The notes under the pieces are model-generated. The model did no database searches, was not told where the DNA came from, and worked only from the letters and a program-made list of their open reading frames with translations. A stretch of 64,000 nt of DNA from Buxus sempervirens (taxonomy: Eukaryota > Streptophyta > Magnoliopsida > Buxales > Buxaceae), in the NCBI GenBank assembly GCA_947561395.2, contig OX387183.1:34522853-34586852 (forward strand). The letters run 5' to 3'. The position numbers and the translations under genes were made by a program. Below are positions 3,425 to 60,695 of the stretch, in pieces. Position 1 is the stretch's first letter, and each line of letters starts with the position of its first letter.

Positions 3425-3467
3425 AGTAAACAGGATATTTAAAGATTTATTGTATTGAGGTAATATA

Positions 3468-18297: not shown

Positions 18298-18443
18298 TTG
18301 TATCCGACACAAGTCATCGGATACAAGCAAGGGTATTTATATCCGACAGAAGTCGTCGGATACAAGCAGACATAAGTGTATCCGACGAAATATGTCGGAT
18401 ACAAAAATGATCACTTGTATCCTACCTAAGTTGTCGGATATAA
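18298..18443. promoter_or_regulatory. GTATCCGAC/GTCGGATAC inverted-repeat cluster in T1 U3
   Basis: Four imperfect palindromes with 7-9 base spacers, for example TTGTATCCGA...TCGGATACAA. They lie 165 bases or more upstream of the T1 TATA box. The same stem recurs in the T1 leader (22992-23136) and in front of the antisense gene (34230-34385). Confidence 0.85.
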
Positions 18444-18607
18444 GGTTTTTGCTCAAAATTAGGGTTTTCTAAGAGTTTTCACTTTTTACCATCATATCCT
18501 TTGTCTAAGGAGTGGAAATCTCGGAAATAGCCCTAAGGTTAAGTGTGGGGGATTCTAGACAATTCCTTGTGTTTACCATTAGGGCGCCCCTAACCCTAGC
18601 CTTTGCT

Positions 18608-18615
18608 TATAAATA
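18608..18615 (+). promoter_or_regulatory. TATA box of T1 5' LTR
   Basis: TATAAATA followed by GGAGGCC and, about 125 bases on, CAG/GTAAG. The layout is the same as in T2 (58162, 58267). Confidence 0.75.
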
Positions 18616-18843
18616 GGAGGCCACTCCTTAAGCAAATGGCCAAGAACTTTTGCCAAGAATTTTGGAGAAGAGTTGGAGATTGAAGAGCTCCAAGTAAAAA
18701 AGGGAAACCTCTGCCCCATTGCTTCCAGCACCCCCAGGTAAGCCTAAAACCCCTTTTCCTTTATGTTCTTAAATTCTAGAAATAGATCTTTCTTCTACCT
18801 TTCTGTAGAATAATGGCCTATTGATTGTGGATGCAACCCCTTT

Positions 18844-21141
18844 TGTAATGCCCCGGATCCGTGTTGTTCAATAAAGATATAACACGTCTCACGGAGTGTT
18901 AGGTAAGGATCTTAATCATTTGTGATCGCTGGATAATCACCTAACTAAAACATATCAGAGTGCACAATCATACTTTATCTAAGAATTCAATATTAAAAAC
19001 TTAACTAAGATTCAAATGGCACAACCACAATGGTCTTTATTTCACCTCAATCATTCAATTTATTCAAAGTTCAATTCGTAATAACCTACAAGTCTAAGGG
19101 ATGTTATAGTAGTCTTCCTCCCTATAAGTCTCAGTCGGATCTACCCCAATAGTCGCCTCACCTCGAGTATCTGAAAAACAAAACACAAACAGCAGAGTGA
19201 GATACGAATATCTCAGCGAGTAGCATATGCATGCAGAAATAGTTAACCGCAGTTCAAATTATGCATCGATAAACATCCCGTATGATTAAGGAACTAATAC
19301 AATTTCCAAGTTTAAAACCAAAACCAATTAATCATTTCTAATCACATTTCAATTCAATACGGCAACATATCGATTGGTCAATGTCATGACTATTGTTAAG
19401 TTGATAAATTAAACATGCCAAGTAGACACTCCACACCTCCATGTACACAGTTCCGGCCTACTCAGGGTTTTGGAAACTCTGAAATGACGGTCTACTCAGG
19501 GTTTCGTCATCCAATGCCGGCCTACTCCCCGGGTTTTGGCATTAACAACCAGGCCTACTCAGGGTTTCTGACTGCTTTACATTGGTCGTGGCAACACACA
19601 AGGCCATGCAATTTCAATAACCAACAATAACATTACATTACTAAGCTTAAGCATGGATCCAGGACAAGCTAAACCAAAACAGTAAACCAACGTAAAACAA
19701 AACAACACGTTCAATCATCATGTATAACTCAACCAGTTCACCTCATGTCCCTCTGGACCAAAACAGTACCTCAAGTATCTCCAGCAGTTAACCACAACTC
19801 ACAACACATGTTCATTGGTAATAAAACCCTTTACTCACACCAAAAGAATTCTTTGCAATACATTTCAGAAACTTGCAATCAAGTAAAGATCGGATGAAGT
19901 AAATTCGCATTCAAGTACAATATATAATAACAGGAACTAAGTCAGGGACTCCTAGGGTTAGGTACAATGAGATCATCTATCATTAGCCCTTTCGAAATAA
20001 TCTTGGATGCTTCTAAAGATTTCCAGAATTTCCACTTCTATTCTCAAAGAAAATTTTATAGGGAATAATGTTTCTAAAGTCCTAAACAAATCATTATTCA
20101 AGTGCTCGAACCCTCATAATCATCAAAACCAGCTTAATTGGGTCAAAACTCTACATTCGGCAAATTTTAGGGCCATGCGCTGACCTCCTGCGCTAGGCGT
20201 GAGGTCGGCGGATAGGTCGTTGGTCAAAATTTTTAGTATGCGCTTACTTAACTCGAGTGAGCACGAGCTAGGTGTGAACTTCGCGCACGATTCGCGCGAG
20301 ATGAGCAGATGTAATTTAAGTTCGTGCGAGCTGGGCGTGAACTAGGCGCGAGCTCGGCGGATAGGAAAAATAAACCTTGCGTCCACTACCTGCAGTTGGA
20401 GCAAGTTAGCGCCAACTCGGCGGATACAAATCTCGATTTTCGACTCTCTGTTATTTCTAGATCTACACGACTGGCCGGACTTTTTCTCTTTGTAACAATT
20501 TTCCCAGTCTCCTAATATCCCCAGAAGATATTTAAACTACTTTTGAAATTATTCCAACACATTTTTATTTATCATCATTCAGTTCTAAAGGAACTCATGC
20601 TCGGACGAACTTCTTCCAAAAAACACACATGCATCATCCAGATTAAACTCAAGAATAAATACGAAAACCCAGTTTTAAAACGATGCTACTCACCGGTATT
20701 GAGGATCTTCTTCTAGCTTCCAACCCTTTTGATGTACTCCTCTAGAGATCCAGCTTTTCGGTCGACGCCCTAATTACTGGCAGCGACTTTTCCCCAACCT
20801 CCGAACCTTCGAAAATTTTTACATTAGAAATCTATTTATAGACGTCGCAAGGTTTAACCTAATTTATCCCTGGCATTAAATTAACCCTCGGGATTCCCTA
20901 TCTACCCCTCATTAAAGTTGAGGTTACCCGGATTATTTATTTGCTAAGTTCCTATTCACTACAAAATTTTTAAGTTCGCACTTAGTTACTTAATAGCATT
21001 CTACTTATTTTCTTTGCCAACTATTGACCACAAATCTCCAGCTTTAAATAAATTTTTGATTAAACCTACTGATTAATTCATGTGTCTATATATTTATATT
21101 TTATTAATATTTTTTTTTCTACTCAAAACTGGGGTTTTACA
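18844..21141 (-). mobile_element. Solo LTR B1 (TGTAAAACCCC family)
   Basis: 2298 bp. On the plus strand it starts TGTAATGCCCCGG and ends CTGGGGTTTTACA, with perfect 5-bp duplications CCTTT (18839-18843 and 21142-21146). A minus-strand TATA box (20833-20840) gives the sense direction. Landmarks shared with B2-B5 are CTACTCAGGGTTT repeats near 19.45-19.57 kb, a GCGC word array, and the AT-rich ends. No coding region belongs to it, so the superfamily is not shown by sequence; the termini suit a Ty3/gypsy LTR. Confidence 0.92.
20173..20425. repeat. GCGC word array in B1
   Basis: Contains ATGCGCTGACCTC, GCGCTAGGCGTGAGGTC, GAGCTGGGCGTGAAC and GGCGCGAGCTCGGCGGATA. The word set is shared with S1 (15168-15530) despite unrelated LTR termini. 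Confidence 0.8.
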
Positions 21142-22991: not shown

Positions 22992-23136
22992 TTAACCGAC
23001 AACTCAGGTCGGTTAAACAGAGTTTCCTTCTTATCCGACGTATGTCATCGGTAAAAGGCTTTTATGCTTGTATCCGATTATTTATGTCGGATACAATAAG
23101 GCATAGCCTTAGCCGACATGTCATGTCGGATACAGC
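22992..23136. promoter_or_regulatory. CCGAC/GTCGG inverted-repeat cluster in T1 leader
   Basis: Four pairs, among them TTAACCGAC...GTCGGTTAA and TTGTATCCGA...TCGGATACAA, with spacers of 7-10 bases. Stems largely repeat those in T1 U3. ACCGAC and GCCGAC are also the core of the plant DRE/CRT element. Confidence 0.8.
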
Positions 23137-23438
23137 CAGGAAATGTGCAAATTGATTTTTCATCCCAAATTTTTAGAATAAAATGCCTAAAACATTGTGA
23201 ATAATCTTTAGGCACCCCAAGGAGAGTATGAAAAGATAATTCAAGTGTTCAAAAAAATTTTTTTTTTTAAGGATTTAACCTAATTTTGAAACTCAAATCT
23301 ACCCTTTCCACAAGCTTAAAGAAAATACATAAAAAGGAACCAAGGTGTCATATTTCTTGATACCAACTCACTTCAAACATGTTTCAATCAAACTTTTGAA
23401 CTTGAAAACTTAGAAAATTCAGCAAATAAAAAAAATAA

Positions 23439-24020
23439 AAAACCTTTGGTTGGTCCTTTTCTCCAATCAAATCAAAAATTTGTGGGACATTTGGAAGCCC
23501 TAGAATATTCAAAAAAAAAAAAAGAAAAAAAAACCTTTGTTTGGTCTCGAGAACCAATCAAATCAAAAATTTGTGGGACACTTGGAAGCCCTAGAATATT
23601 CCAAGAAACCTTTGTTTGGTAACGAGTACCAATCAAATCAAAAATTTGTGGGACATTTGGAAGCCCTAGAATATTCCAAAAAAAAAAAAAACCTTTGTTT
23701 TGTCATGAGAACCAATCAAATCAAAAATTTGTGGGACACTTGGAAGCCCTATAATATTCTAAGAAACCTTTGTTTGGTCACGAGTACCAATCAAATCAAA
23801 AATTTGTGGCACATTTGGAAGCCCTAGAGTATTCCAAAAAAAAAAAAAAACCTTTGTTTGGTCACGAGAACCAGTCAAATCAAAAATTTTTGGGACATTT
23901 GGAAGCCCTAGAATATTCCAAAAAAAAAAAAAAAACCTTTGGTTGGTCACCAGTATCAATCAAACCAAAATCTTGTGGGACCTTTGGAAGCCCTAAAATA
24001 TTCCAACAAAAAAAAAAGGA
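23439..24020. repeat. Hairpin minisatellite before T1 gag (7 units, ~75-92 bp)
   Basis: Each unit reads CCTTTGTTTGGTCACGAG..., CAATCAAATCAAAAATTTGT, then a hairpin TTTGGAA - 11-base loop - TTCCAAA, then a variable A run. Units 2 and 4 have CTTGGAA opposite TTCCAAG or TTCTAAG, so the closing pair changes on both sides. Open frames here are repeat by-products. Confidence 0.9.
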
Positions 24021-24174: not shown

Positions 24175-26390
24175 AGATCCAAAGCTCGAGTAATGAATAC
24201 TGAAGAGAATCAAGCTCAAGCCACCGTTCCCATCCAGGACTTTGCTTAGCTGCAAGAGTAAGTGGCCGGACTGGCCAAGATGCTAGGAGATTTACTGGCG
24301 GCTCAGGCCCAACAGGCCCAGGCCCAAAACCAAGCCTCAACTTCCCATCAAGCACCACCACCTTAAGCCTACATTCTACCTCCAACTCAACCCATACCTG
24401 AGCCCACTTCTGAACCAGTCCCTGAACCTATCCTGATAAGGGAAAATACTGTGGAGTATGAAAAAGAGATGGAAAAGGAAAGAACCAGGGAGGAGATGGA
24501 AAGGAAACTCCTACATAAGATCGAGAGGATCCAAGAAGAACTCAAGGAGGTAAAAGGGGGAAACAGTTATGGAGGCACCACCTTCGACGACCTGTGCATA
24601 TACCCGGATGCATGCCTACCGGCAAAGTTCAAGTGCCCGGACTTCGATAAATATGATGGCACGGGCTGCCCAATGAGCCATTTGAAACTATACTGCGGGG
24701 CTTTGTGCCAGTTTGGCCGGGATGACGGCATACTGATCCAATTCTTTTAGAGGAGTTTAACAGAATCGGCTCTGAAGTGGTTTGCCACGGTGGACCATGG
24801 AAGGATCAGAAGATGGAAGGACTTGGCCGATGATTTCCTGGACCAATACAAATTTAACTCAGAGATCGTGCCAGATTGGTATGACATGATGAGGATGAGT
24901 AAGGGTAAAGAGGAATCTGTAAGGCAATATGCCAAGAGGTGGAGAGAGGTTGCCTCCGAAGTCAGGCTGCCTATGTTGAAACCCGAGATGATCTCAACGT
25001 TTGTGGGTATACTGGGGAAGCCCTTCTACAACCATATGGTGGGTCAGATTACCACCAATTTTGCAGCCTTGGTACAGGTGGCTGACTGGATCGAGGAAGG
25101 GGTTAGGTCAGGAAAACTCATTGATTACTCTACTTTGGCCGGACAATCAGATTCCTCCACCTTCCTGGCACAGAAGAAAAGAATTGGGTTCAAGAAGAAC
25201 GGGGCAAGAAAAGAAGGAGAAGTGAACTTGGTGCAAGCTCCCCCTTCTAAGAGGCCACTCAACATTAATGTGTCTGCACCCCAACAGGCCGAGCAGGCCG
25301 AGCAGTCGTATCAGACCCCACTCAATGTCATTTTCTCCTCCTCCGTGCCTGCGAATCAGAGGAGGGCTTTCACTAAGGAAGAGAAGGATGCTTGGATGGC
25401 AGCAAGGAGAAGCAAAGTTTTTACCCCCCTTCCAGTGTTTCTTTCCCAACTGTTACCAACCCTGCTGAAAGGGGAGTATGTGACCCTGAAAGAGCCCAAC
25501 CCAAATGCCTTGAAGGGGAGGAATTTTGATCCGGCAGTCACTTGTGACTTTCACATGGGTGCACCGGGGCACTCTACAGACACTTGCTGGATTCTGAAGC
25601 ACGCGGTTCAGGATCTATTGGATCAGAAAGCCCTGGTCTTTAATACTGCTGCACCTCCCCCGTCAGGAAATGATATTGGGCAGAACCCTCTGCCTTATCA
25701 CAATGGGGCGGGCCCTTCCAACTCCATCACTGCCATATCCTCTACGAGAAGGGCCTTTGACCCATCTCAATTGATAGCTCCCATAGGAACCTCAGTTAAG
25801 GTCCGTTTCTTCCAAGAGAAAGGGGAGGATGAAATTAATGTCATCTCCCAGAAAAATGATCATGCTGCTGAGGATATTAGCTCCTCCTTGAACCGGGTCT
25901 CCTCCCTCATGGCCCAAATAAACATTGCAAGCCCTCCTTTGGTCTTCAATTGTAGTCGACCCACTTATTCTCCATCCTAGCCATCAAAAGCTCCCTTGGT
26001 CATCCAATGTGACCCCACCACAGTATCCGTTACTCCTTCTGTTCCAACAGTTTCCAAGTAGCTTCTACCTTTGGTGGTAAATGTTCCACCTATCTGTAAT
26101 ATTCAAAAACCAACTCCTACATCCTGGTCCAAGCGCCAACCGCTGGTGATCCATGTCCCAAAACTTGCCTATTCTGAGTCAGCTGTACCATGGAACTACA
26201 GCGGGGGAATGATCATGAACCAGAACCAGGAATAGGTGAACCTCATGACGAGGTCAGGGAGATGTGTAGAAGGCAAAGAAAAAGAAACAGAGGTGGAGAA
26301 GGAGAGAAAAGAAACAGAAGAAAACAAAAAAATGAAAGGAAAAACCAAAGTAGGAGAAGACATCACCTAGGATGCAGGAAATGAGGCATC
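24175..26390 (+). mobile_element. T1 gag region
   Basis: The N-terminal part has a Gln/Pro-rich spacer and a charged coiled-coil-like stretch (MEKERTREEMERKLLHKIER). The conserved capsid-like core follows (FKCPDFDKYDGTGCPMSHLK, then WKDLADDFLDQYKFN and VRQYAKRWREVA). Near the end is a zinc-knuckle-like CDFHMGAPGHSTDTC. The closest relative in the window is T2 gag at 61838-64000. The protein would package element RNA in the cytoplasm. The region is broken. Confidence 0.9.
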
Positions 26391-26519: not shown

Positions 26520-27950
26520 GCTCCAGAGTGCACATGTATCCCAGCCTAAGGATCCGGACCAACTAGGCAAAATGGTTGGTCAAATCTTGTCACACAATGT
26601 GATAAGTTTCTCCAAAGGTGAGATAAGCCTAGGTGGGTGCTACCATGTTGACCCTTTGCACATCACAGTGCTTTGCAAGGGCAGTATGTGGCACGGGTTT
26701 TAATTGACAATGGATCGGCATTAAATGTCTGCCCATTAATCACTTTTGCCAAACTTGGTCTGGATCAGTCAAAGATCAAGCAGAATGGGAGGATTGTGAG
26801 GGCTTTTGATAGCTCTAAGACACACTCCCTAGGGGAGATTGAACTGCCGGTCACAATTGGACCGAATATCTTCAACATCACATTTGAAGTGATGGATATC
26901 CCCGCAGCCTTCAATCTGCTCCTAGGGAGGCCGTTGATACATTCGGCTAGGGCAATACCATCCACACTTTACCAAAAAGTGAATTACATAAGAGGCAAAG
27001 GGTGATAACTGTCCTAGCTGAGAATTTGGTGCCTCTCATTGTGTCACCTGATGTACCCTTTATAAATGTGGAATTAACTGTCGACAAGATTGCGTTCCAC
27101 TAGTTTCAATTTGAAACAGTCAATTTCATACTTGGGGGGTGTGAGAAAAAAGAAGAGAAAAGGACTACTACAGAGAAAATGGTAAGGAAAGTGATGGAAA
27201 AATACCACTTTCACCCCGGGAAAGGCCTGGGAATTAATTTGCAGGGGATGGTGGAGCCAATTAGGGCAAAGAAGCTGGTCCCTAAAGTAGGGTTGGGATT
27301 TAAACCTAGAGGACGGAGAAGGATGAAGCATGAAGAAGGAGAGAAAAGAAGTAAAGGAAAATTCCTTCACTTAAAGGAAAATTTTCCTAAACCCTCATAT
27401 ACAATCCAACTGTCTCCTCCCATGGATCAGTCCAAACCCCCGTACCGAAATGTCAATCCTTTCCAAAAGCCATTAGTTCCGACCCTGCAACCCTATAACC
27501 CATCTCCTACAATTGAAACAGTGGGCGGGCCTGGGCCACAGCCAGAGCAGCAGACGAACTTCTTCGAAGATGTTGGGGCTTTCTTCGCCATGATTGAAGG
27601 TGAAAGGACCGGTGACAATAAGGATCTGCCGTTCATTGATTGGGCAGCAGTGAAGATTCTAGATGAGGTTATATCTGGATTGGGCCCCGTGGCAGAAAAG
27701 GGCAGTACAACTCATCCGGTGATGATGGCATCAGATTCAGGGTTTGAGGAGCAAGCTTTCCCCATTTCCCCGGCTCTTGAAAAATTTATATTAAACAATT
27801 GGGAGGAAACTCCCCTTACTTTTGAAGCAGCGTTTGTTTGGCAAACAGACGCGGCTTCCAAAAAAAAACTCCATCAGTGGAATGCCATTTCCCTAAAGGT
27901 CCTAATGAGCCTTCGTCTTCAGGGAAAGTTTGTTTAGAAGGCTCACAAAA
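26520..27950 (+). mobile_element. T1 protease and G-patch region
   Basis: The retropepsin core is visible as VLIDNGSALNVCPL (D-N/T-G-S-A active-site loop), with the later ...FNLLLGRPLIH flap/C-terminal motif. It is followed at about 27190-27330 by a glycine-rich G-patch-like segment (GKGLGINLQGMVEPI, VGLGFKPRGRR), a domain common after protease in Tat elements. The rest is a low-complexity linker to RT. The region is broken. Confidence 0.82.
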
Positions 27951-28059: not shown

Positions 28060-29560
28060 TTCAACCTTGAGCTCGACTTTGACCTCATGGGGATCGAAGA
28101 AGAGACTGAGGTCAAAGAAGAAGACCCTCCAAAGGAAATTGAATATCAATTGGAGCGTCATGAAAGGGGTGTACAACCTAATATTGAGGAGACCATCTCA
28201 ATAAATCTTGGGACCAAAGATGACCCAAAAATAGTGAAAATCGGGGCATGCCTGTCTGATGTGTAGCGTGATGAAATAACACGGTTCTTGGCAGACTATA
28301 AGGATGTGTTAGCTTGGTCGTATCGGGACATGCCGGGGTTGGACACTGACATGGTGGTGCACAAGTTGCCAATTTTGCCAGGGGTCAAGCCAATCAAGCA
28401 GAAGCTGAGAAGATTGAAACCTGAATGGACCTTGAAGGTCAAGGACGAAGTGGTCAAGAAATTCCAAGCAGGATTTTTGGCAGTCTCCACGTACCCCGAG
28501 TGGCTCGCAAACATAGTGTCGGTACCAAAGAAGGATGGGAAAGTCAGAATGTGTGTGGACTATAGAGATCTGAGCAAGGCAAGCCCAAAGGATGATTTTC
28601 CGCTTCCATACATCGACATCTTGGTGAACAATACTGTGTTACATAGCCTGTTCTCATTTATGGATGGCTTCTCTAGGTACAATCAGATCAAGATGGCTAA
28701 GGAAGATTAAGAGAAAACAGCGTTCATCACACCTTGGGGCACTTTCCACTATACTGTCATGCCATTTGGGCTCAAGAATGCCGGGGCAACATACCAGCGG
28801 GCCATGACAGCACTATTTCATGACATGATCCACAAGCAGATGGAGGTCTATGTGGACGATATGATTGCCAAATCATGCAAAGAAGAGGACCACTTGATCA
28901 ATCTAAAGAAGGTGTTTGATCGACTCAGAAAGTATAGTTTACGGCTTAACCTGGCTAAATGCTTCTTTGGGGCTACATCAGGGAAATTGCTGGGATTTAT
29001 AGTGAGCCAAAGAGGAATTGAGATTGACCCGGCTAAAGCCAAGGCCATAATTGAAATGCCATCAATCAGAACGGAGGAGGTTCGTGGTTTTCTTGGAAGA
29101 ATTCAGTACATAAACCGATCCATAGCACAACTCATTGCTATCTGTGAACCAATTTTCAAGCTTCTAAGAAAGGATAATCCGACGGTTTGGAATGAGGATT
29201 GCCAGCAGGCCTTTGATACAATAAAGAAATATTTGCTAAATCCACCTGTGCTAGTGCCACCAACTCCAGGAAGACCATTGATTCTGTACTTGTCAGTATT
29301 GGAAACATCGATGGGATGTGTCTTGGGGCAGCATGATGAGACTGGTAGAAAGGAAAGGGCAATATATTATCTGAGTAAACAATTCACAGAATATAAAGCC
29401 AAGTACTCACCGTTGGAAAAGACTTGTTGTGCTATAGTGTGGGTAACTCAGAGGCTAAGGCATTACTTCCTTAGTCACTCCACATTATTGATATCCCGGA
29501 TGGACCCTCTGAAGTATTTGTTTGAGAAAACCAGCACTAACTGGTAGAACAACAAAGTGG
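28060..29560 (+). mobile_element. T1 reverse transcriptase and first RNase H
   Basis: RT shows the Ty3/gypsy series: VSVPKKDGKVRMCVDYRDLS, the SFMDGFSRYNQIKM block, TPWGTFHYTVMPFGLKNA, and the catalytic YVDDM at about 28849. The first RNase H follows (LYLSVLETSMGCVLGQHDE, AIYYLSKQFTEYKAKYSPLE, and the HYFLSHSTLLISRMDPLKY end). The protein would copy element RNA into DNA. The region is broken. Confidence 0.92.
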
Positions 29561-29587
29561 TAGCTGTTACTATCCGAGTTTGACCTC

Positions 29588-30022
29588 ATGTACATCACTC
29601 AGAAGGCAATTAAGGGTCAAGCCATTGCTGATCACCTAGTTGCACATCCTTTGCCAGAATACCAACTTTTGAAGACTAATTTTCCTGATGAAGCAATTTT
29701 GTTTACTGAAGAGGAGGAAAGTGAAAGCTCTTGGCAGATGTTCTTCGATGGGGCCGCCAACATGAATGGAAATGGAATAGGGGTAGTCTTGGTTAAACCA
29801 GATGGTTCACACATCCCGATCGCAGTAAAGTTGAGATTCCAGTGCACAAATAACATTGCGGAGTATGAAGCGTGCATAATTGGGTTGCAAGCCGCCATAG
29901 ACCATGAAGTGGAGGAACTTGACGTATACGGAGATTCGAGTCTTATCATCTTCCAAACAACTGGTGAATGGAAAATCAAGGATCACAAACTAATCCCCTA
30001 TCACCAGTATTTGGAAGAATAG
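29588..30022 (+). mobile_element. T1 second (archaeal-type) RNase H
   Basis: A second RNase H domain is visible as WQMFFDGAANMNGNGIGVVL, NIAEYEACIIGLQAAIDH and ELDVYGDSSLIIFQ, carrying the D-E-D catalytic pattern. Having two RNase H domains is the diagnostic trait of the Tat lineage. Confidence 0.92.
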
Positions 30023-30053
30023 CACAAAATTTACTCGAATTTCCTTCAACTAT

Positions 30054-31460
30054 ATGCCAAGGGCCAAAAATCAGTTTGTGGATGCTCTAGCAACATTGGC
30101 TTCCATGGTCAGCATGCCAGAAGGGGTAGACATCAAGCCACTGGAAATTGAGGTCAGAGATGAACCGGCTTACTATCTTGTTCTAGAGGGAGCACCAGAA
30201 GAGGAAGCACCATGGTTTCAAGACATCAAAAATTTATTGAACAATCGGAGTCTGCTAGAAAATGTCACTTCTGCTGAGAAAAGGACAATACAGAGGTTGG
30301 CCGGTCAATACCTACTAAGTGGTGGACAGTTGTACAAGAGATCACACAATGGCATTCTACTCAGATGTATTGCCAAGGCTGAGTCAGAAAGGTTGATTGA
30401 GACTGTACATGGAGGAGTTTGTGGACCCCATATGAATGGACACATGCTTGCAAAGAAGATTCTGAGGTTGGGATACTATTGGTCGACAATGGAGCACGAT
30501 TGCTATGTACATGTCAAGAGGTGTCATCAATGTCAAATGTATGCGGATAACAAGCATGCAGCACTAAGTGAATTGCACAACATGACGTCACCATGGCCCT
30601 TCTCCATGTGGGGCATAGATGTCATCGGCATGATTTCCCCCAAGGCATCGAACGGGCACAGATTTATCCTGGTAGCAATCGACTATTTTCCGAAGTGGGT
30701 AGAAACAGCTTCATATGCAAACATCACAAGCAACCATGTTATTAAGTTTTTGAAGCATAATATCATTTGTCGCTATGGACTGCCAAGGGCCATAGTATCA
30801 GATAACGCTTCAAATATTAAGAACAAGGATATGAAGAAGTTGTGTGAGCAATTCCAGATTACCCATCATAAGTCCGCTCCATATAGGCCAAAGATGAATG
30901 AGGCAGTAGAAGCAGCAAACAAAAACATAAAGAAAATCATTCAGAAAATGGTATTGAGTTACAAAGATTGGCACGAAATGCTACCACTTGCTCTACATGC
31001 CTACAGAACCTCAATCCGGACTTCAACTGGGGCATCCCTGTATTCCCTAGTCTATGGGATGGAAGCAGTTCTGCCAGTGGAAGTAGAAATCCCATCACTT
31101 AGAGTGCTCATGGAAGCTGAATTGGAAGAAGCTGAATGGATACAGTCAAGACATGATCAACTCAATTTGATAGAAGATAAGCTTTTGAAGGCGCTTTGTC
31201 ATGGTCAATTGTATCAGAAGAGAATGGCCAGGGCTTACAATAAGAAGGTGAAGCCCAGAACTTTCCAGGAAAGGAATTTGGTTCTAAAGAAAATTCTATC
31301 GTTTTTGGAAGACCCTCGTGGTAAGTTCAAGCCAAATTGGGAAGGGCCTTATGTTGTCAAGAAGGTCCTGTCAGGGGGTGCACTCATCTTAACAAAAATG
31401 GATGGAAAGGATTTTCCTGAGTCAATTAACTTTGATGCAGTAAAAAGGTATTTTCCTTGA
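30054..31460 (+). mobile_element. T1 integrase
   Basis: The N-terminal HHCC zinc finger is visible (HGGVCGPHMNGHM ... CHQCQMY). The catalytic core has GIDVIG, IVSDNAS and NEAVEAANKNIKKI, giving the D,D-35-E set. The C-terminal domain ends GPYVVKKVLSGGALILTKMD and FDAVKRYFP, typical of Tat integrases, with no chromodomain. This frame is long and among the better preserved parts of T1. It would insert element DNA into chromosomes. Confidence 0.92.
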
Positions 31461-32409: not shown

Positions 32410-34178
32410 CTAGTCTCTATCCCCTAGCCGCTTCTCAAGCTTCCGAATCCGAGCTGCCTGAGCTGCAATAACTCCAGAAGCCCCCTTTGCATCCGGATCG
32501 CTCAAAAAGGATATGACTTCATCTGAAAGTGACTGCCTGATCCTCATGCCTCTAAGGTTGGCTAAAGCATCTTGGTGCTTCTGCCGTAGCACTCGGACTT
32601 CAAAACAGCGAGCCTGCCTCTGCTCCTCAAGTTGCTTTTCCATAGCAAGACGACGGGATACTTGCTCTTCAAGTTGCCTCTCCAGATCAAGGCTTCGTAT
32701 CCTAAGCTCCTGGGCCTCTTGTACCCATATCTGCTGAAGTCGCTTATGAAATGCTCTTTCGGACTCCAAAATGTCTTCATAAGTAGGGGCCAAAACTGCA
32801 AGAGGATCCTCGGGTACTGGGGCTTGACTCTGAATCTGCTCCTTGATCCAGAAAATGTAGTCCTTCACATGGGACTCTGAGAAGACTGAGCCTCGCATGA
32901 AATGAACATAGGACCATTCCCTCATCAACCAAGCGTTCAACTTCATGGTGGTGGGAGAAAGTGGCCCAAGGTAATCCTCATATCCACTTGGGGTTATAAT
33001 CCCCTGGGTTGCTCTGAACTGCCGAAGAACTTGCAAGGGGAGGTAGAGTACAGCATATCTCAAACTCGCCAGAACCAAAAAGTTGCTATCTCTAAAGCTG
33101 ATCACGGTCTCTGCATTGGGTTGATAAGTACCAGGCCACCTCACCTAATCATCCTGGAGTGTATCCAAGAAAGAGAACCAACCCTGTTTGCCCCCTGGAA
33201 TGTCAGGACACCCCCGGTTGCTCATCAAGACCGGAACCTTCATGCTTAGAAAGAAATGCTGGTTAATCTCTTCAATTTGACTCAGGTAGTCAAGTAACCA
33301 AAGCTGCAGAAGGGGAGAAATATTTCAATGTATTGTAGAAAAAAAATAAAAAAAAGAAGAAAAAAGAAGAAATAAAAAGAAAAGAGAAGGAATTTTACCT
33401 ACAGGATGGGGGCACATGACAGGAAGCGCTTCTTCTTCCTGTGATAGCAGTCGGTCAAGGCCTGGTACATCCCTGCCAAAATCATAGGGACCAATCTCTC
33501 CTGCTCCCTAACTTGACAAACGACTGAGATTAGGGCCAAGTCAACTTCATCATCATCTCGTGGGAAAAGTAGTTGGTTGACCACTATCAGGGTCAAGGCA
33601 TTAAATCTAGCTTCCTTGTTTTCCCCCCTTAAGAGCTTCTCAGTCAAAAAAGACTTGGATAAAGTCAAAAGGGTGTCAGAATCCCCTAAATCCTTCTTTC
33701 CTATGCCCAAAAAGGTGGAAGCCTTTTTCTTGTAGCTAGGCTTAAGAGGTGGGTTCACTACTTTCTCTGCAAACCTCAAGCCCAGGATGGTTTCAACCTC
33801 TTCAATGGTTTGGGTCATCTCCTTGTCTCCAAAATGAAAAAGGTTCAAATCAGGAACCCAATGCCCAATCATGGCCTCAATAATTTTCCACTTGAATGGG
33901 ATGGACGGGATGAGCAAGGTGTGACCTAGGTGAATAGTGTCCCATCTAATCTCTTCATCAAGGGTCATAAAGTTAACCCACCTAGTGTAGAATGAATCTA
34001 CGGGGTTGTACCTAGTGAGATTAGGGGGTTTTGCTCTAAAAGGTTGTTTTGCAGGGGAGGCTACGTGGACAGACAATAATGGGGTAGAGGATGATCCGGA
34101 GGCCATTAGGGATGATCGGAGCTTGCTCAGAATCAATGGGAGGAGGAAAGAGGCGAAAAGGGGGTTTTCTAAACTCAA
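32410..34178 (-). mobile_element. T1 antisense gene a (DUF7745-like plus coiled coil)
   Basis: Antisense to pol. The first block (34178-33399) has MASGSSSTPLLSVHVAS, then WDTIHLGHTLLIPSIPF and WVPDLNLFHFGDKEMTQTIE, which resembles the DUF7745 domain seen in extra genes of plant gypsy elements. A GT-AG intron of about 100 bases with a strong pyrimidine tract separates it from the second block (33304-32410). That block ends in a long coiled coil (LDLERQLEEQVSRRLAMEKQ and onward). Extra antisense genes, some spliced, are a known trait of Tat elements; their function is unknown. This copy is not fully intact. Family assignment is from memory. Confidence 0.75.
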
Positions 34179-34215
34179 AAACTCGTAAAAATGACTTAAA
34201 TCCCGAGGCCAGTTG

Positions 34216-34385
34216 CTTTTATAGCATGTTTTAATATATCCAAAATATCAGGTCGGATACAAAAGGTCCTGTTCTTATCCGATGAAAAATGTCGGATACA
34301 AAAGAGACTGTTTGTATCCGACATGTCATGTCGGATACAAAAAGATTTTAATGTATTCGATCTGATATGTCGGATACAAAGAAAA
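34216..34385 (-). promoter_or_regulatory. Promoter of antisense gene a: TATA box and inverted repeats
   Basis: TATAAAAG on the minus strand (34216-34223) lies about 40 bases upstream of the first ATG of gene a. Directly upstream is a cluster of GTATCCGAC/GTCGGATAC pairs, including the nearly perfect TTTGTATCCGACATG...CATGTCGGATACAAA. The stem is the same as in T1 U3 and leader, so all three places may share a binding factor. Confidence 0.75.
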
Positions 34386-38547: not shown

Positions 38548-38814
38548 TTGTGTCCGATCAAATATGTCGGATACACATGCTTTTATTCATATCCGACATA
38601 TAATGCTGGATACAAGAGATTTGCCCGCGAGATTCGCGTGGATTCGTTGACAGATACACACAGAAAATAAAATTTTGGAAATGATTGTGTTTGTATCCGA
38701 TATAATATGCCAGATACAAAGGAAGTGCAGTGTATCCGATATAATATGCCGGATACAAAGGAAGTGTAGTGTATCCGACATTAAATTCCGGATGCAAAAA
38801 TGTTTCTATAAAAA
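38548..38814 (+). promoter_or_regulatory. S3 promoter: GTATCCGA inverted repeats and TATA box
   Basis: Five pairs of the type TTTGTATCCGATA...TGCCAGATACAAA or GTGTATCCGA...CCGGATACA end at 38795, and TATAAAAA follows at 38807-38814. Spacing from array to TATA is about 12 bases. The stem word is the T1 word, in a different LTR family. Confidence 0.8.
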
Positions 38815-47837: not shown

Positions 47838-48037
47838 GACCATGCGCTGACCTCCTGCGCTAGGTGCGAGGTTGGCGGATAGGTCGTGGGTTAAAAAAAA
47901 TAGTATGCGCATACTTAATATTGAGTGGGCGCTAGATGAGCGTGAACTTCGCGCGAGCTAGGCGCAAGCTTGGCGGATAGGAAATAAAACCTTGCTACCT
48001 CCAGTTGGCGCCAGTTAGCGCCAACTCGGCGGATACT
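47838..48037. repeat. GCGC word array in B4
   Basis: ATGCGCTGACCTCCTGCGC, GGTGCGAGGTTGGCGGATAG and GCGAGCTAGGCGCAAGC. It is close to the B1 array and related to S1. Confidence 0.8.
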
Positions 48038-48907: not shown

Positions 48908-49016
48908 TTTTTTGAGCTGATCTGACAACTTAGGCCGGATCAGAATGTTGTTGTATGTAGCCGACAACTTAGGTCGGCTACAAGTGCTTCTATGTGTAGC
49001 TGACATCTCAGGTTGG
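48908..49016. promoter_or_regulatory. GTAGCCGAC/GTCGGCTAC inverted-repeat cluster in S3 3' part
   Basis: Three pairs with the same 8-base spacer type: TGATCTGAC...GCCGGATCA, GTAGCCGAC...GTCGGCTAC and GTGTAGCTGAC...GTTGGCTACAC. The spacer AACTTAGG is close to AACTCAGG in the T1 leader pair at 22993 and in S2 at 55557. Confidence 0.8.
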
Positions 49017-50011
49017 CTACACCATTGAATATTTCATTTTTGCTTTTTCTTGCTGCCATGTTATTCTTTGTGATCTTATAGCCAAACCATGGAACCTAGA
49101 CCGATCCGGTCAAATTTGATTTCAAGTGGGCCTTCCAACAGGGCCCACTAAGCCCGACAAACTTGCTTTTGCTAAACAAGGATAATCTCACTAAATGAGT
49201 GGGCCACACCATTAGAGGCCCACCAAAGCCCACTTGGGAAGCATGTTGCTTAGATTTAGGCATGGTTTGGCCGAGACCACGGGTAGGGCCTCTCGGGCCC
49301 ACTAAGCCCATTGAACCAAACAAGATTAGGGTTTTCAAACCCTAACTTAGGAAGTCTTGGGCTTTCAAGCCCAAGCCCAGGTAAAGGGCCCCAAGCCCAA
49401 AGCCTGGCCCATTTTGGCAAAGATTAATCAAATATAACTCAAGTCACTTGGCAACCATCTGTGTGGCCCGCTCGTGGGCCCACAAAGTAATCCCGGCCCA
49501 CTTGGCATGAAAATCATTTAACCTTAAACCTGAATTTCAAATAAATCAATTCATTTAACCAAAGCCCAAAGGGCCTCTCAGGTGTAGACTGAGGCCCACC
49601 AAGGGAACATGTGGGCCGCACTTGGCCCACCAAGGGGTCTGTGGGCCTTCCAACGGGGCCCACCTAATTAGACTCACTTCACTGAATAATAAAAGGATAA
49701 AAACAAGTAAAGGGACCCACACCACTTTGGCGGTCCCGCTAGACTTAATCGAAGTGAATGCTGGATTAGGAATTGGGTGACTAAGATACCGAGTTGACTC
49801 AGAACCACGAAAACCTATGGGACCCGTCATCCGATGGGGTGGACTGGGGTGTTTACGGACTTCCCCAGACCGCAACCGAGAATTTGCTTAAGAATCTCAA
49901 GCCGCAGACCAAGCCTTAATAGACAAATATAGGCACCCAGGTGTCCGCCTGCACCCCATCAGGCTGTGGCGATTCCAAATTCCCATTTTTACCCGTGAGA
50001 CCATGCGCATA

Positions 50012-54224: not shown

Positions 54225-54345
54225 GGCTTTGCCCGTATTCTATTCACGGGCCGGTCGTGCTCGAAATCAATCTACGGTCAGGTGCGCCCGTGGAAACTAT
54301 ACGGTCACCGTTGGACCGTAGTGCATTTACGGTCACTAAAGACAC
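54225..54345. promoter_or_regulatory. GCCCGT/ACGGGC and ACGGTC cluster in T2 U3
   Basis: A perfect pair GCCCGT...ACGGGC with an 8-base spacer at 54231-54250, followed by TACGGTC, ACGGTCACCG, GGACCGTA and ACGGTCAC. Allowing for S2, it lies about 190 bases upstream of the T2 TATA box. The stem word recurs in the T2 leader (60558-60695). Confidence 0.75.
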
Positions 54346-55554
54346 GTGCGAGTTTTGTCCTTCTCTCGATTTCCGAGCTTTATCTTTAGTCCAATATATC
54401 TTTAAATGAGCGAATTAAGTATTTTATTCGCTGAAGCCACCTTGGTTGGCTATGGATGGGCATTATCTCTGTATTTCACTCTATCTTAAAGACCAGGCTG
54501 TGCGCACCCCGATTTCGGTCGCACGACGAGGCACACGCAAAACGATGCGTGCCTCGGGATTTGTTTGGAGTCGCCACTGCCTGATGGGGTGCAGGCAGAC
54601 ACCTGGGTGCCTAAGTTCTTCTGCTAAGGGTTTTGGTCTGCGGCTTTTGAGATTCTAAGTAGAGGCTCGGTTGCGGTCTGGGGAAGTCCGTAGACACCCC
54701 AGTCCACCCCGTCAAATGACGGGTCCCATAAGTTTCCTTGGTTTGAGTCAACTTTGGTCTCTCACTCACCTGATTCCTATTCTAGCATGTGATTTGATTA
54801 AGTCTGGCGGGACCGCCAAAGTGGTGTGGGTCCCTTTACTTGATTTTATCTTCTTAATTAAAGTGATGTGGGTCTGACTGGGCGGGCCCCGTTGGAAGGC
54901 CCGCGGATTCCTTGGTGGGCTTGGTTGAGCCCACGTGTCCCTTGTGGGCCTCGGTCTAGCCTAAGAGGCCCTTTGGGCTTTGGTTCAAGTGAATTGATTT
55001 TATTTAAATTCCAAGTTTGGTTAAATTTGATTTTTCATGCAAAAGATGAGTCTGGGTTGCTTTGTGGGCCCGTGAGTGGGCCACACAGTGGGTTGCCAAG
55101 TGATTTCAGATTATCTTGATTAGCCTTTGCAAAAATGGGCCAAGCATTGGGCTTGGGGCCCTTTACCTGGGCTTGGGCTTGAAAGCCCAAGACTTCTTGA
55201 GTTAGGGTTTTGGCATCCTAACCTTGGTTGGGTTCATGGGCTTAGTGGGCCCGATAGGCCCTGCCCGTGGTCTCGGCCAAACCACGTCCTACTTTAAGCA
55301 TGCATGGCCCAATTAGGGCTTGGGTGGGCCTCAAGTGGTATGGCCCACCCAAATATTTTATTTATCTTAGTTAAGCAAAATAAATTGGTTGGGCTTGGTG
55401 GGCCCCGTTGGAAGGCCCACAAGTGAATCCAATTAGACCAGAGTGGTCCAAGTTCCATTTTGGGTGACCCAGAAACCCTACTGGTTCACTCGGTTTGATT
55501 AAAAGATCCTAAAAATAACATAAAACAAAGAATATACAAAAAATGACATTTCCA

Positions 55555-55710
55555 CAGTGTAGTCGACCTGAGTTGTCGGCTACACACAGAAGCCCATGTA
55601 GTCGGCCTGGGGTGTCGGCTACACACAGAAATGCATGTAGCCGACCACCAAGGTTGGCTACAAACAAAAATCTACTGATCCGACTTGAGTTGTCGGATCA
55701 GTCTAAAAGT
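55555..55710. promoter_or_regulatory. GTAGCCGAC/GTCGGCTAC inverted-repeat cluster in S2
   Basis: Four pairs: GTAGTCGAC...GTCGGCTAC, GTAGTCGGCC...GTCGGCTAC, GTAGCCGAC...GTTGGCTAC and GATCCGAC...GTCGGATC. It occupies the same relative LTR place as 48908-49016 in S3 and uses the same stems. Confidence 0.85.
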
Positions 55711-56939
55711 GGTCTTTTTTGGGATTTTTTCCAAGTGGGCTAGCTTTTGGGGCTTCCCAACTCCCTGGCAGCAAGCAAGTGAAGCAAATAAAGTTCATCT
55801 AAGCAACAAACAAGATGCATGCCTTAGATCCTAGTGAGTATGTGCATGTGCACGTGCATGACCATACTTTATATGAACAAAGTTGTAGCCAAGGAAGATG
55901 GGGATCCTTGCAGGGGGCTAATGCACATGAACATGCTTGGTGTGTGTTTGTGAGGAAAAGTGAAAAAAAGGGGGGTAGGTCACCATTCCAGCAGCAACTA
56001 AAAGAGGTCACAATGGGTGGTATGGGAAAAAAACATGCTTCCAAGATACATGTTAATAAAGAACCTAAATCTGAACAAGTAACCATGATGCAAAATGACA
56101 TACTTAAACACACATGAAACCAAGATGCAAAGCCAAACAAGAGAAGGGATGAGAGGGGGAGTTAATGGGGTACAAAGGAATAGAAAATGAAGGGAACAAA
56201 CTCCCCATTCGAATGGGATAAATCAGTAGCAAAATAGGACTCTAAAAACCATTAAGAACATATGCAAGGTGATCCTCTTCCTCCCTTGAGGCCGACCATG
56301 TGTCTTCCCCTTACCATGGGATTTTTCTTGTGCAAAATGGAGAAGAAAAAGTAGAGGAGAAAGACATTAACATGCTAGGAGAAGAAGAAAATAACATGCT
56401 AAAAATGGATGACACTCCAACTTGCGGGTTCTCCTTCTCCCTTCTAAGTTAGAATACTTTCCTCTTACCATAGGAAGTATTTCTCATGGAAGAAATGGAA
56501 AGAAAGAAGAAGGAGATGAGGTAGAGGAACAAAATATAGCAAAATAGTGAAACATGCTCACAATCTATTCCTTTTCATATATGTTAAACAAAAAGTATCA
56601 AGGAAGCTTACCTTGGGTTGAATAACTCCCTTGGACAAGTGTGGAAGCCTCTTGACGGCTTGGACAGCACCTTGGAGGCTTCTTCTTGGGCTCCAACAGC
56701 ACTTCCTTGCTTCCTCCTTGGTTGCAAGTGGAAGGAGAAGAGATGGGGAAGGGTTTGAAGGTGTGTATTGGAGAGGAAAGGTTGAAGGAGGTGGTGTGAG
56801 CTTGGGAGATGGAGAGGGGCTTGTGGGAGAGATGAAGAGAACTTGGGAGAGAGGTTGGAGAAGAAGAAATGGGTGAGCCAAAAAATGAGCTCCTCCATAC
56901 GTATGGGGCTCCATGGGGCTTTTATTATGTTGATTATGA

Positions 56940-57350
56940 TGGGTGAATGCATATGATGCATGCATGGGGAAAAAGTGTTTGGAGGAGAGAGAGAGAGAGA
57001 AGGATGCATGAGGTGGTGCATGCATGGATGATGCATAGGGGATGCACATGGGGAACACTAATCATGAGGGAGAGAGAGAGAGGTGCATGCATGATGCATG
57101 CATGGGTGATCATGGGGGGAAGAGAGAGAGAGAGAGAGGTGTATGCATGATGCATGCATGGATACTCATGAGGGAGAGAGAGAGAGAGAGAGAGAGGTGC
57201 TTGCATGCATGATGCATGGGGATGCACATGGGGAACAAGAATTTATGAAGGAGAGAGAGAGAGGGAAACGATGTGGTGGGGAATTAAGCATGTGGGGGAT
57301 GAGTTATGGAGGAGAGAGAGGGAGAGAAAGATGTGGTGGGGAATTAAGCA
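56940..57350. repeat. (GA)n plus CATGCATG minisatellite in S2 U3
   Basis: About six units combine a GAGAGA run with one or more GCATGCATG / ATGCATGCAT palindromes. It lies directly upstream (minus sense) of the probable S2 TATA box. CATGCATG is the plant RY element bound by B3-domain factors. The LSLSL-rich open frames on the minus strand are by-products. Confidence 0.9.
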
Positions 57351-58161
57351 TGTGGGGGTGATTTTCTTGGTAATTGTAGATTAGTCCCTGAGCTATTTTA
57401 ACATCAACTTGCTATTCACATATTTGCCCCTAGATAATTACAGATATGTCATCAGATATTTTTGACTGTCCTGATTATTTACGGATTTGCCCCTAGACAC
57501 CTTTTTCTGCTGTTTTCTCTGCTGTTTTTGCCACGTGGGCAGTTTTTAGGGTTTATTGTTTTGCTCATAACTTATTATCCGGAACTCCGATTCGAGCAAA
57601 CTCAGTTGCATTGGAATCGTGTCAAGATGACCTGTCCACTAGGACAAGCTTAAGCAGCTGTTCTGGGGTTTAGCAGAAAGTCAATTTCTGCTCCCCCTCA
57701 AGTTTGACCGGTTCATGTCTTCTTCATCCGGACCCCGATTTGGGCAAACTCAATTGCGTTAGAACCGTATCGGAGCCCTCTATCCCATGACCTAGGGGTA
57801 AGCCTCTGGATCGGATTTTAGCATAAAGTCAACTTTTGGCTCTGCTCAAGTTTGACCGCCTGCAGAACTTTCATCCGGACTCCGATTCCTGCAAACTCAG
57901 TTGCGCTGGAATCGTGTCGAGATTCTCTATCCAATGATATAAAGCAAGGTGGCCAAATATCACTTAATCAAAAAGTCAACTTTTTGTCCCCTCGGGGTTT
58001 GACTTTCTGCCAGGGTTTTGAGCTGTTTTGCTGTCTTTTAGCACATTTTTTTGTTTTCTTATTTTCTTTTCTTTTCTTGTTTTTTCTTTTTTGGTTTGAT
58101 CAAAATTTGGGTGCTTACACAGGCCATATCCTTCTGGACCAGCCTTGCCCCTAGGTGTGTC

Positions 58162-58169
58162 TATAAATA
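58162..58169 (+). promoter_or_regulatory. TATA box of T2 5' LTR
   Basis: TATAAATA, followed about 100 bases later by ATCCAG/GTAAGTCC. The layout is the same as in T1 and T3. Confidence 0.8.
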
Positions 58170-59339
58170 GAGGGCCTTTCCTCTGGCAAAAGGCCACGAA
58201 ATTTTGAAGAATCAAAAGCTCCAAGAGAAGGAAAGGAATCCCTGCTGCTCTGCCTGCTCAATCCAGGTAAGTCCCCTATCTCTTTTTATTTTTTGTCTTC
58301 AATTCTAGAAGTAATAGGATCATCTCTATTGCAGTAGAATAAGGCCATATCTATTTTTGTATTCCTAAACTTGTCTCTAAGTACCTCAAGAGTCTCTCTA
58401 GCCGTAAAACGTGAAGAGAGAACTAGGGGAAAGGGGAACAGGTGGATCCCTAGAATAGAACCCCATATCTGTTTTTTCTTTTTTTCATAGAATAAGGCCT
58501 GTGATTGTGTTTGTATACCCAAACCTATCTCTAAGTACCTCAAGAGTCTCTCTAGCCATAAAACGTGAAGAGAGAACTAGGGGAAAAGAGAACAGGTGGA
58601 TCCGTAGGGTAGACCCCCATGTGCTCTAATTTGTGAGATGTGGCTATTTTGAATATCCTGATCATGTTTTAATGCTTTTTATGATATATCTGAATGAATC
58701 TATGAATCCATGATGATTATAGCATGAGATCCCCACTTTTTGCCAAAATTTGGATTTTTGCCACTTTTGCACCTACAGCACTGTTTTCGTGATTTTTTTG
58801 TGGTTTTAGGCTAAGATCCTGGATTTATCATGATCAATATGATAGATCTGGATATAGAAGCCTGAAAGTAAATTCTAGGGTTTGATGATGTGGTTTTTAA
58901 ATCGTTTTTCCTTTTTGAGAGAAGACCCTACGGTCTAATTTCTCCCATTTTGGTGTTTTTCATCAACGTGGGTATTTTTGGTTTTGATTTTCAGATTTAA
59001 CGTGAAATTTGGGCTTTATCTATGTCCTGGACTGTTCAAGTTCAATTTTGAAATATTTTATAAAAATCATATTTTTCTGGATCAATCAGACTATTCATAT
59101 GAAAAAACCATATATTTTTGCCTTTTTTGTGATTTTGTGTGATTTTTATAGCAAGTTTTTTCCTTTATTTTAAACATGAACAATACCTGGCAACCACCTT
59201 GAGTGGATGAATAGGGGTGCCTAACACCTTCCCCTGTCCATTCACACCTAAATTGAATGGTGGCGACTCTTTGTTTTATTTAATCCCGTGTGATGATTAA
59301 GGAAATCATTTAAATTGATTTTTTCCCATGTCTCACAAC

Positions 59340-59357
59340 TGGCGACTCTGCTGGGGA
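59340..59357 (+). promoter_or_regulatory. Primer-binding site of T2
   Basis: TGGCGACTCTGCTGGGGA, two bases after the LTR end. This is the PBS described for Tat/Ogre-type elements, usually assigned to tRNA-Arg. It starts minus-strand DNA synthesis. Confidence 0.85.
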
Positions 59358-60557
59358 CTTGAGGATTTCAGCCTTTTGGTGTTTTAGTTCATGTTTTTGA
59401 TTTGCTTGCTATTTTGTGTTCTTAAGCATGTTGGGTATGTTTTAAATCTGAATTATTGCTTAAGAATTCATGGGGGTAGAAACATGTTTAATTTTGATTT
59501 ATAGGATTGTTTCTACAAACATGCGTAGGGGAGGTCCGTTTTGCTGAACCATGCTTATTTCTTGCTATATTTTTATAATAGCATGTTTTAATTTTCAGCA
59601 TGATCTCCATGATGATTTTGGGTGTATAACATGATCATATGTTTGCATGATAGATGATTTTTTTTATGAGCATGTTTTGGGTGCTATAGGATTGCTTTAT
59701 TTACTCGTTTATTTTAAATATGATTTCCTATTATGCTTTGGTTTGTTTATGCATGGCTACGAAAAGAGTGGCAAGGGTTTGGGACGTTGTGAATGCACCC
59801 TATTTTTACAATGCACTATGCACCTTTAATTTTTTTTACACGGCCTACCCTTAACCTATAGGAAGTTGAACCCGAATGTGTGTAGCTTGGCGCAACGAGG
59901 TCGATACTTCGGAAAGCGAAAGTGAAAACATTCACCTTAGAACTTTGAGCTAATGATGTGATGATAATGTGGATCTGGGATTCTGGTCATCACTAGGCTT
60001 GAGTGCTAAGTTGCCATTAAGCCAAAACCCAAAACCCCTACGCTTGAAGGTGGAGTTACACGTTTTTGGCTAAAGTATACAATTACGTGGGAATATGGGT
60101 TTGTATGATTGAGGGAAGGCCGTATGCATGGCTTACAAACCAGGGCATAATGCGGATGCCATATTGAAGGTAAACAAGGTAACAAGGTAATCCTATTGCT
60201 TTGCATTATTATCATGTCATAGGGGTGTCATGGTGCCCATTGGTTGGGGACAAAATTGGTCACAAATATGTTTGTTCTTAAGCATGGTGTAGCCCATAGG
60301 AAGAGTCTCTAACTTTGTTTAGAATCAATCCTACCCTATGTACACACAAGAGGCAACAAAAGGGTACCGAATTCTTGAGTATGGTGTCAATTTGGAAGGT
60401 ACATGTGCCTTCCTAAACATGTGTTTTAGCAAAAAGGTAAAAGTCCACTTTGGGACAGTTTAGAAGCCTGGCACTGGGTGAACCGTATGTTTGGATGAGC
60501 AATTAAAGTGATCAAACCATGTAAAAACTGAAAAAATATAACAGGGTTCCGTAAAAC

Positions 60558-60695
60558 CGCATTTAGTACACGGGCTGGGCTTGCCCGTATTAGTTATACG
60601 GGCTAGGCTCGCCCGTGTTTTCCATACGGTCACGGCTTGCTCGTAATTTGAATACGGGCAGGGCTGGACCGTACTGTGTATACGGTTTTCTCGGG
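60558..60695. promoter_or_regulatory. ACGGGC/GCCCGT inverted-repeat cluster in T2 leader
   Basis: ACGGGC...GCCCGT, ATACGGGC...GCCCGTGT, TACGGTC...CGTA and TACGGGC...GGACCGTA in a row, spacers 6-9 bases. It uses the same words as T2 U3 and sits at the same leader position as the T1 cluster at 22992. Confidence 0.85.

Follow-up and report, generated by a model that had tools for sequence, protein, structure and literature searches.

Everted CCG dyad arrays with family-specific half-sites at LTR and antisense promoters of Tat-like retrotransposons in Buxus sempervirens

The window analysed here, a 64-kb stretch (64,000 nucleotides) of the 676-Mb genome of Buxus sempervirens (contig OX387183.1, positions 34,522,853 to 34,586,852 of the forward strand), contains numerous pieces of long terminal repeat (LTR) retrotransposons, including members of three families, T1, T2 and T3, and four further sequences, S1 to S4. 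Clusters of short inverted repeats lie upstream of the TATA boxes of the LTRs and at the promoter of a gene that runs antisense to the T1 element. These clusters have a common geometry, an exact everted dyad CCG-N11-CGG, while the bases flanking the CCG cores differ between families and agree, within a family, between LTR and antisense promoter. A first-pass annotation, made from the sequence letters, had placed CpG-bearing dyads upstream of TATA in T1 (18298-18443), T3 (13966-14036 and 17116-17310), S3 (38548-38795), T2 (54225-54345) and antisense gene a (34230-34385), and all of these were confirmed. All comparisons between copies were made within this one genome, and L-numbers (L009-L113) denote loci read from it.

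The sense-strand open reading frames (ORFs) of T1 encode, by Pfam scan, gag, a G-patch domain, reverse transcriptase (RT) with RNase H, a second RNase H and integrase, and the opposite strand has an ORF matching DUF7745 (E 2e-17) and the plant mobile domain, PMD (E 4e-10); across the 20 ORF pieces scanned, the matches above cut-off were confined to gag, G-patch, RT, RNase H, integrase, PMD and DUF7745. Domains in the pol ORFs (28711-31460) run RVT_1 with RT_RNaseH, RVT_3, then Integrase_H2C2 with rve. The portions of Neumann et al. (2019, PMC6317226) available to us define the Tat clade by the order RT, RNase H, additional RNase H, integrase, and report PMD in 57% of Ogre elements. Because its pol order matches that description, T1 fits a Ty3/gypsy element of the Tat clade, and a provisional assignment to Ogre rests on PMD; the Ogre feature of an extra ORF with a plant mobile domain is found antisense in T1 and, via DUF7745 at locus L069, in T2. 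By sequence identity T2 is a relative of T1, with 80% identity over 675 bp of leader and 78-79% in the alignable stretches of the antisense gene. Its antisense PMD gene lies outside the window, at L069, where the counterpart of the second antisense ORF region of T1 occupies 1995-3947 on the minus strand with a weak PMD match below cut-off (E 0.016). A second T1 LTR copy in the window (44844-48315) has neither array nor TATA box because it starts about 540 bp downstream of the first copy's array start, and a 1.7-kb stretch that interrupts it carries five GTTCG-N20-CGAAC dyads (46902-47190) at 61-62-bp steps. At E 0.01 the window shows no further copy of the T1 promoter stretch apart from the arrays themselves.

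Inverted repeats are in clear excess. Dyads with 9-bp arms number 117 in the window against 62.5 +- 7.2 in 20 dinucleotide shuffles, and those bearing CpG number 42 against 5.6 +- 2.2 (maximum 10), an enrichment over shuffled sequence that the first-pass annotation had predicted. The exact dyad CCG-N11-CGG occurs 28 times against 2.5 +- 1.4 (maximum 8) in 200 dinucleotide shuffles, and against an average of 4.4, counted by hand, for all other spacers from 0 to 30; when symmetric flanks are required there are 17 at N11 against an average of 0.5 at the others, again by hand. Ten array stretches hold 24 of the 28, and four lie elsewhere. That annotation took a dyad layout with spacers of 6-9 bases to be what is kept; the constant part is this exact spacing, present in five of the six arrays named. 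S1 (16267-16323), which had been counted as a member, is a single dyad whose 13-bp arms stand 31 bp apart and has no CCG-N11-CGG inside. Four arrays (22992-23133, 60557-60690, 48918-49021 and 55559-55700) come in addition to those listed before. An unbiased 5-mer dyad scan also returned three series of other geometry, which were set aside: TACCG-N1-CGGTA (9995-11500), GTTCG-N20-CGAAC (46902-47190) and TCTGA-N13-TCAGA (60896-61548).

The same geometry dominates outside the window. In 70 pooled promoters of the three half-site classes defined below (A, B and C), CCG-N11-CGG occurs 185 times against 1.7 (maximum 6) in 50 mononucleotide shuffles; other spacings are minor, the largest being seven at N12, in T3 LTRs. 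Class A dyads mostly recur every 39 bases and class B dyads every 27-28, whether at the LTR or at the antisense promoter; those of class C are irregular. Position is similarly constrained: LTR arrays lie 170-211 bp upstream of TATA in 23 of 28 LTR copies, and of the 34 antisense promoters of classes A and B that hold an exact dyad, 31 have the array 16-55 bp upstream of TATA. The 3' LTR of T2 (L090) has four exact dyads, the last 195 bp upstream of TATA. In the leaders, the first CCG of the array (22992..23133 in T1, 60557..60690 in T2) falls 193 bp past the block of 80% identity in T1 and 190 bp past it in T2.

The flanks of the CCG core are specific to the family: ATCCGA in T1 (class A), G[C/A]CCGT in T2 (class B) and AACCG[C/T] in T3 (class C), T3 being placed solely through the class C antisense genes that neighbour its copies. 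That stems differ between elements, as had been claimed, holds for T2 and T3; the half-sites of T1, S3 and gene a are all of one class. We read 8 LTR copies of T1, 10 of T2 and 10 of T3, plus L111 and L113, and half-sites were counted only where an exact CCG-N11-CGG is present. In class A, ATCCGA is found in the LTRs at 8/8 loci and in 20/20 exact dyads, a count that holds by selection because the T1 query included the array (the T2 and T3 queries excluded theirs), and in antisense promoters at 27 of 31 loci and 50 of 61 left half-sites, the T1-type antisense set being the best 30 of 139 matches (L009-L038). Class B half-sites, mostly GCCCGT or GACCGT, occur at 10/10 LTR and 7/7 antisense loci, and class C half-sites, AACCGC or AACCGT, at 10/10 and 4/4. 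The agreement can be followed within elements. In T1, the gene a promoter array and the LTR array share one half-site; in T2, the antisense promoter at L069 reads gcCCGtagtaactttaCGGgc and the LTRs and leader read gcCCG..CGGgc and gaCCG..CGGtc, all of these belonging to a single element whose 5' LTR and leader lie in the window, whose antisense promoter is at L069 and whose 3' LTR is at L090. Two pairs of T3 LTR and class C gene (L110/L111 and L112/L113), 2.7 and 13.6 kb apart, have AACCG half-sites on both sides.

Linkage was scored among the 40 scored LTR copies per query and the 138-150 antisense matches listed, and is thus a lower bound. Of LTR-gene neighbours up to 25 kb apart in the expected opposite orientation, 21 of 25 are matched by class (T1-A 6, T2-B 12, T3-C 3), a figure reached by 1 of 100,000 permutations, pairs that share an element not being independent. 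Nineteen of the 21 matched pairs lie at 1.3-7.5 kb (3' LTR side) or 12.4-16.0 kb (5' LTR side), and two at about 20-22 kb. The four mismatches comprise one T1-C, two T2-A and one T3-A pair, which neighbouring or nested elements would explain; three neighbours in the same orientation are all mismatched.

Stem class also follows the antisense protein. A genome search with PF10536 gave 117 matches, whose loci (L039-L068) were left aside in favour of DUF7745; 20 loci were hand-picked for diversity from the 118 DUF7745 matches. Eleven have upstream arrays (one class A, six class B, four class C), and in these stem class follows protein identity, L077 serving as the class C reference and the class letters of L070-L089 having been assigned after the stems were seen and then compared with identity. 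It does so too in four of the five T1-type loci compared (every sixth of L009-L038), the fifth having no exact dyad. The suggestion that stems diversify to follow a changing trans-factor is supported by this and by the finding that, in each of three families, the stem at the LTR agrees with the one at the antisense promoter. The array-less DUF7745 loci (L070-L072, L074-L076, L078, L081 and L082) have open frames of 446-498 aa, and a lone CCG-N11-CGG, its flanks not symmetric, occurs at one of these nine. The class A antisense ORF is under purifying selection: among 28 of 30 copies (two with a translated identity of 0.75 or less were dropped), nonsynonymous divergence (dN) averages 0.055 and synonymous divergence (dS) 0.365, dN/dS is 0.15, and dN is below dS in 378/378 pairs. 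In genome-wide counts that allowed a gap of 4-14 bases between 6-mers, class A half-sites form 12,565 like-like dyads, class B 15,046 and class C 6,862, against 574, 3,818 and 1,152 for reversed-pattern controls; mixed A-B dyads come to 81 on one strand and 87 on the other, against 61 and 85 for their controls. The gap is 9 bp in 23 (A), 47 (B) and 43 (C) of the first 50 forward places listed, judged by eye; the class A places listed all come from one chromosome end and include other repeats and spacings.

Table 1. Features of the window, in window coordinates.
Feature	Position	Strand	Remarks
T1 LTR array	18298..18443	+	4 dyads, 3 exact CCG-N11-CGG; half-site ATCCGA; 39-bp period
T1 LTR TATA box	18608..18614	+	
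Second T1 array, upstream of gag	22992..23133		4 exact dyads, 39-bp steps; AACCGA, ATCCGA, TACCGA, AGCCGA
T1 gag ORF (Retrotrans_gag)	24751..25980	+	
T1 ORF, G-patch domain	27104..27937	+	
T1 pol, three ORFs	28711..31460	+	RVT_1 and RNase H; RVT_3 (second RNase H); Integrase_H2C2 and rve
T1 antisense gene a	32410..34247	-	ORF 33399-34247 DUF7745/PMD; ORF 32410-33144 without family above cut-off
Gene a promoter array	34237..34380	-	class ATCCGA, 39-bp period, 2 exact dyads
Gene a TATA box	34218..34224	-	
Second antisense ORF region (gene b), upstream of gene a	34574..36579	-	weak PMD, E 0.003, below cut-off
S3 array	38548..38797	+	class ATCCGA; TATA at 38807
S4 array	48918..49021		39-bp steps; of 3 dyads, one is exact and two are decayed (third by eye)
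T2 LTR array	54225..54345	+	GCCCGT/GACCGT, 27-28-bp steps, 3 exact dyads
S2 insertion between T2 array and T2 TATA	54499..58119		target duplication CAGGC (5 bp); boundaries by eye
S2 array	55559..55700		39-bp steps; 4 dyads, of which one is exact; A[G/T][C/T]CG[A/G]
T2 LTR TATA box	58162..58168	+	
Second T2 array, upstream of gag	60557..60690		4 exact dyads spaced by multiples of 28 bp; half-sites mostly of class B
T2 gag ORF	61802..62686	+	
T3 LTR array, proximal part	13960..14034	-	AACCG[C/T]; TATA 13755-13760 minus
T3 LTR array, distal part	17116..17318	-	separated from proximal part by S1
S1 dyad TATGCGCTCA	16267..16323	-	other geometry, outside the system

Several smaller observations accompany these features. 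S1 is inserted within one CCG-N11-CGG dyad of the T3 array (13966-17310), and the dyad it interrupts is intact in 9 of the 10 uninterrupted T3 copies read (L100-L109). The uninterrupted target site of S2 is present in the T2 3' LTR (L090). Tandem repeats lie between leader array and gag in both T1 (23429-24017) and T2 (60845-61622), and a short element at 9671-11779 has near-identical ends of 284 bp (95.8%) with an internal series of TACCG-N1-CGGTA palindromes.

Three accounts other than a sequence-reading protein of the element's own could produce such arrays. Selection for pairing, as cruciform, RNA hairpin or a double-stranded RNA source of small RNAs, finds some support in single-strand folding, where six of eight arrays fall far below shuffles (z -4.1 to -8.8), and in an excess of pairing at a few variable positions (0.63 against an expected 0.49 at the second inner position in class A and 0.71 against 0.61 in class B; 0.40 against 0.27 at class C -3). 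However, the T2 LTR (z -1.7) and T3 (z -2.0) arrays fold hardly better than shuffles, the gap has a fixed length that loops do not need, and elsewhere pairing is rarer than expected (0.27 against 0.41 at class B -1, 0.31 against 0.48 at the first inner position of class C and 0.00 against 0.35 at its fourth inner position). Over 30 class-position cells the mean difference, calculated by hand, is about -0.03. The first-pass annotation had named arms that vary without compensation as a ground for refutation, and compensating change is not consistent within families; since half-sites that vary independently would leave such a pattern and true pairing would give a steady excess, protein half-sites are favoured over hairpins, and its cruciform or hairpin alternative appears very improbable. 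Its other proposal, arrays of dimeric binding sites, gains from the rigid N11, the homotypic half-sites and the period of 39 or 27/28 bp in two of three classes, as far as sequence can tell. The arrays might also have been copied rather than read, through tandem duplication and transfer between one element's promoter regions during reverse transcription; they are indeed tandem, in units of 39 or 28 bp, lie at corresponding places before gag in T1 and T2, and in classes A and B keep one period at LTR and antisense promoters. Yet between LTR and antisense arrays of a class, flank identity is 0.73-0.96 and spacer identity 0.35-0.42 (the core is 1.0 by selection), and outer bases differ as spacers do. 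Recent copying is unlikely because spacers differ while flanks agree, and flanks are less diverse than spacers in 6/6 sets; we regard this origin as improbable. Half-site columns are likewise less diverse than the remaining columns in all six promoter alignment sets (L086 being excluded from class A), with a permutation rank below 0.05 in three (A antisense 0.011, B antisense 0.006, C LTR 0.050, A LTR 0.075, B LTR 0.17, C antisense 0.19).

Host transcription factors deserve more weight. Families may have recruited different paralogues sharing a CCG core, with the same factor serving LTR and antisense promoters; a fixed gap would suit any dimer, and class A contains CCGAC, the core of the DREB/CBF site. 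In the available parts of Bousios et al. (2010, PMC2829016), Sirevirus motifs compared with a cis-element database gave mainly sites of stress-related factors. Against this stand the presence in one host of three families with three flank codes and one geometry, the near-control level of mixed A-B dyads and the tracking of the code with the clade of an element protein, and we consider host recruitment rather unlikely. An element-encoded reader is likelier than a host factor, given that a family uses a single code and that this code tracks the clade of the element protein; the antisense PMD protein comes first among the candidates, since its own promoter bears an array. The clusters are probably binding arrays for a sequence-specific, family-specific symmetric dimer, most likely made by the element, for which PMD/DUF7745 is the best candidate. 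Such a dimer would read two everted NN-CCG-N half-sites whose cores are separated by 11 bp; the three families have core and gap in common, and the flanking bases form the family code. More tentatively, and with rather less confidence, the antisense PMD/DUF7745 protein may be a self-encoded dimeric regulator that binds at the U3 promoter, at the leader array and at the promoter of its own gene and switches, or keeps open, transcription in sense and in antisense, acting on its own family alone; families would then diverge by protein and arrays together and the switches would be private. We infer protein binding, encoding by the element, the identity of the protein as PMD, and activation or anti-silencing in preference to repression.

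A number of observations weigh against this reading. Gene b, gag and integrase fit equally well, since all element proteins are inherited with the arrays. Nine of the 20 DUF7745 loci have no upstream array; they form a distant clade whose identity to the class references does not exceed 43%. The arrays of S2, S3 and S4 are linked to no antisense gene. The four class C antisense promoters show no TATA[AT]A downstream of the array, the spacing in two of the four mismatched pairs is typical for a 5' LTR, and the mixed-dyad search covered the combination A-B. Three of the six diversity sets are not significant; CCG cores alone are not less diverse than their surroundings in class A (0.191 against 0.183; 0.129 against 0.094), nor are they in class C antisense promoters. 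Decay of methylated CpG may account for these diverse cores, the signal there being carried by the flanks. The compared part of PMD is fairly similar between classes (60-74% identity) and no specificity segment was located in it, a PDB sequence search gave no solved relative, and a single-sequence AlphaFold model of the PMD exon had a predicted local distance difference test (pLDDT) of 36.6 and was not used for a fold search.

Among known features, the RM boxes of Sireviruses are the closest in cis, and VANDAL elements with their VANC proteins are the closest system. As described in the available parts of Bousios et al. (2010, PMC2829016), RM boxes are palindromic, with a CGG/CCG core in all listed motifs but one, occur in many copies in the LTR upstream of TATA with an element-specific sequence, and in further copies upstream of the internal ENV gene; they are called Sirevirus-specific, within a Ty1/copia comparison set. 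The arrays described here resemble them in having palindromic repeats with a CGG-CCG core before TATA and extra copies before an internal gene. They differ in that T1 has domains of Ty3/gypsy type and not those of a Ty1/copia Sirevirus, in that the dyads are everted, CCG..CGG with N11, whereas Sirevirus motifs are compact, and in that the internal copies lie before gag and at an antisense PMD promoter, the stem class agreeing between sites and with the gene clade. There is reportedly a later study on LTR palindromes of a maize Sirevirus.

VANDAL elements carry a short motif in tandem non-coding arrays, bound by VANC21 in chromatin immunoprecipitation sequencing and electrophoretic mobility shift assays (Hosaka et al. 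2017, PMC5735166, in part); families use differing motifs, and the element-encoded VANC proteins diversify with their targets (excerpts of PMC5735166 and of Sasaki et al. 2023, PMC10398659). Here, too, the motif differs between related families in step with a protein, as a correlation across three families, and VANDAL/VANC, to which the first-pass annotation had pointed, is an apt analogy for how the predicted binding arrays might work. Unlike VANDALs, which are DNA transposons with a VANC gene, these are LTR retrotransposons; unlike VANC, the candidate protein is PMD/DUF7745, and its putative sites are symmetric dyads with a common core. Antisense ORFs of Retand have been proposed as DNA-binding regulators (sections of Neumann et al. 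2019, PMC6317226, and Vicient 2025, PMC11963269), and the reference list of the latter, in the portion available, includes a title on the Grande accessory gene transcribed from its own promoter. What sets the present elements apart from published accounts of extra ORFs in Ogre/Tat elements, in the parts available, is the matched cis array in LTR and antisense promoter; a literature search, thin in subscription journals and working from partial texts, found no description of such matched arrays in Tat elements. The host PMD proteins MAIN and MAIL1 affect transcription and transposon silencing, and a 'DOWN' promoter motif accompanies part of their targets, direct recognition being one hypothesis (Nicolau et al. 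2020, PMC7156037, in the parts available). MAIN and MAIL1 are host genes, unlike the element PMD.

With a fixed dyad whose flanks encode the family standing at LTR and antisense promoter alike, the role of Tat antisense PMD/TRP28 ORFs and the reader of plant LTR palindromes become one question of binding. If the proposed regulation is true, large LTR retrotransposons would hold private transcription switches that diversify in the manner of VANDAL anti-silencing systems, the retrotransposon PMD would gain a biochemical role and LTR retrotransposons a VANC-like private code, and a function in reading DNA could extend to host PMD genes, MAIN and MAIL1 among them.

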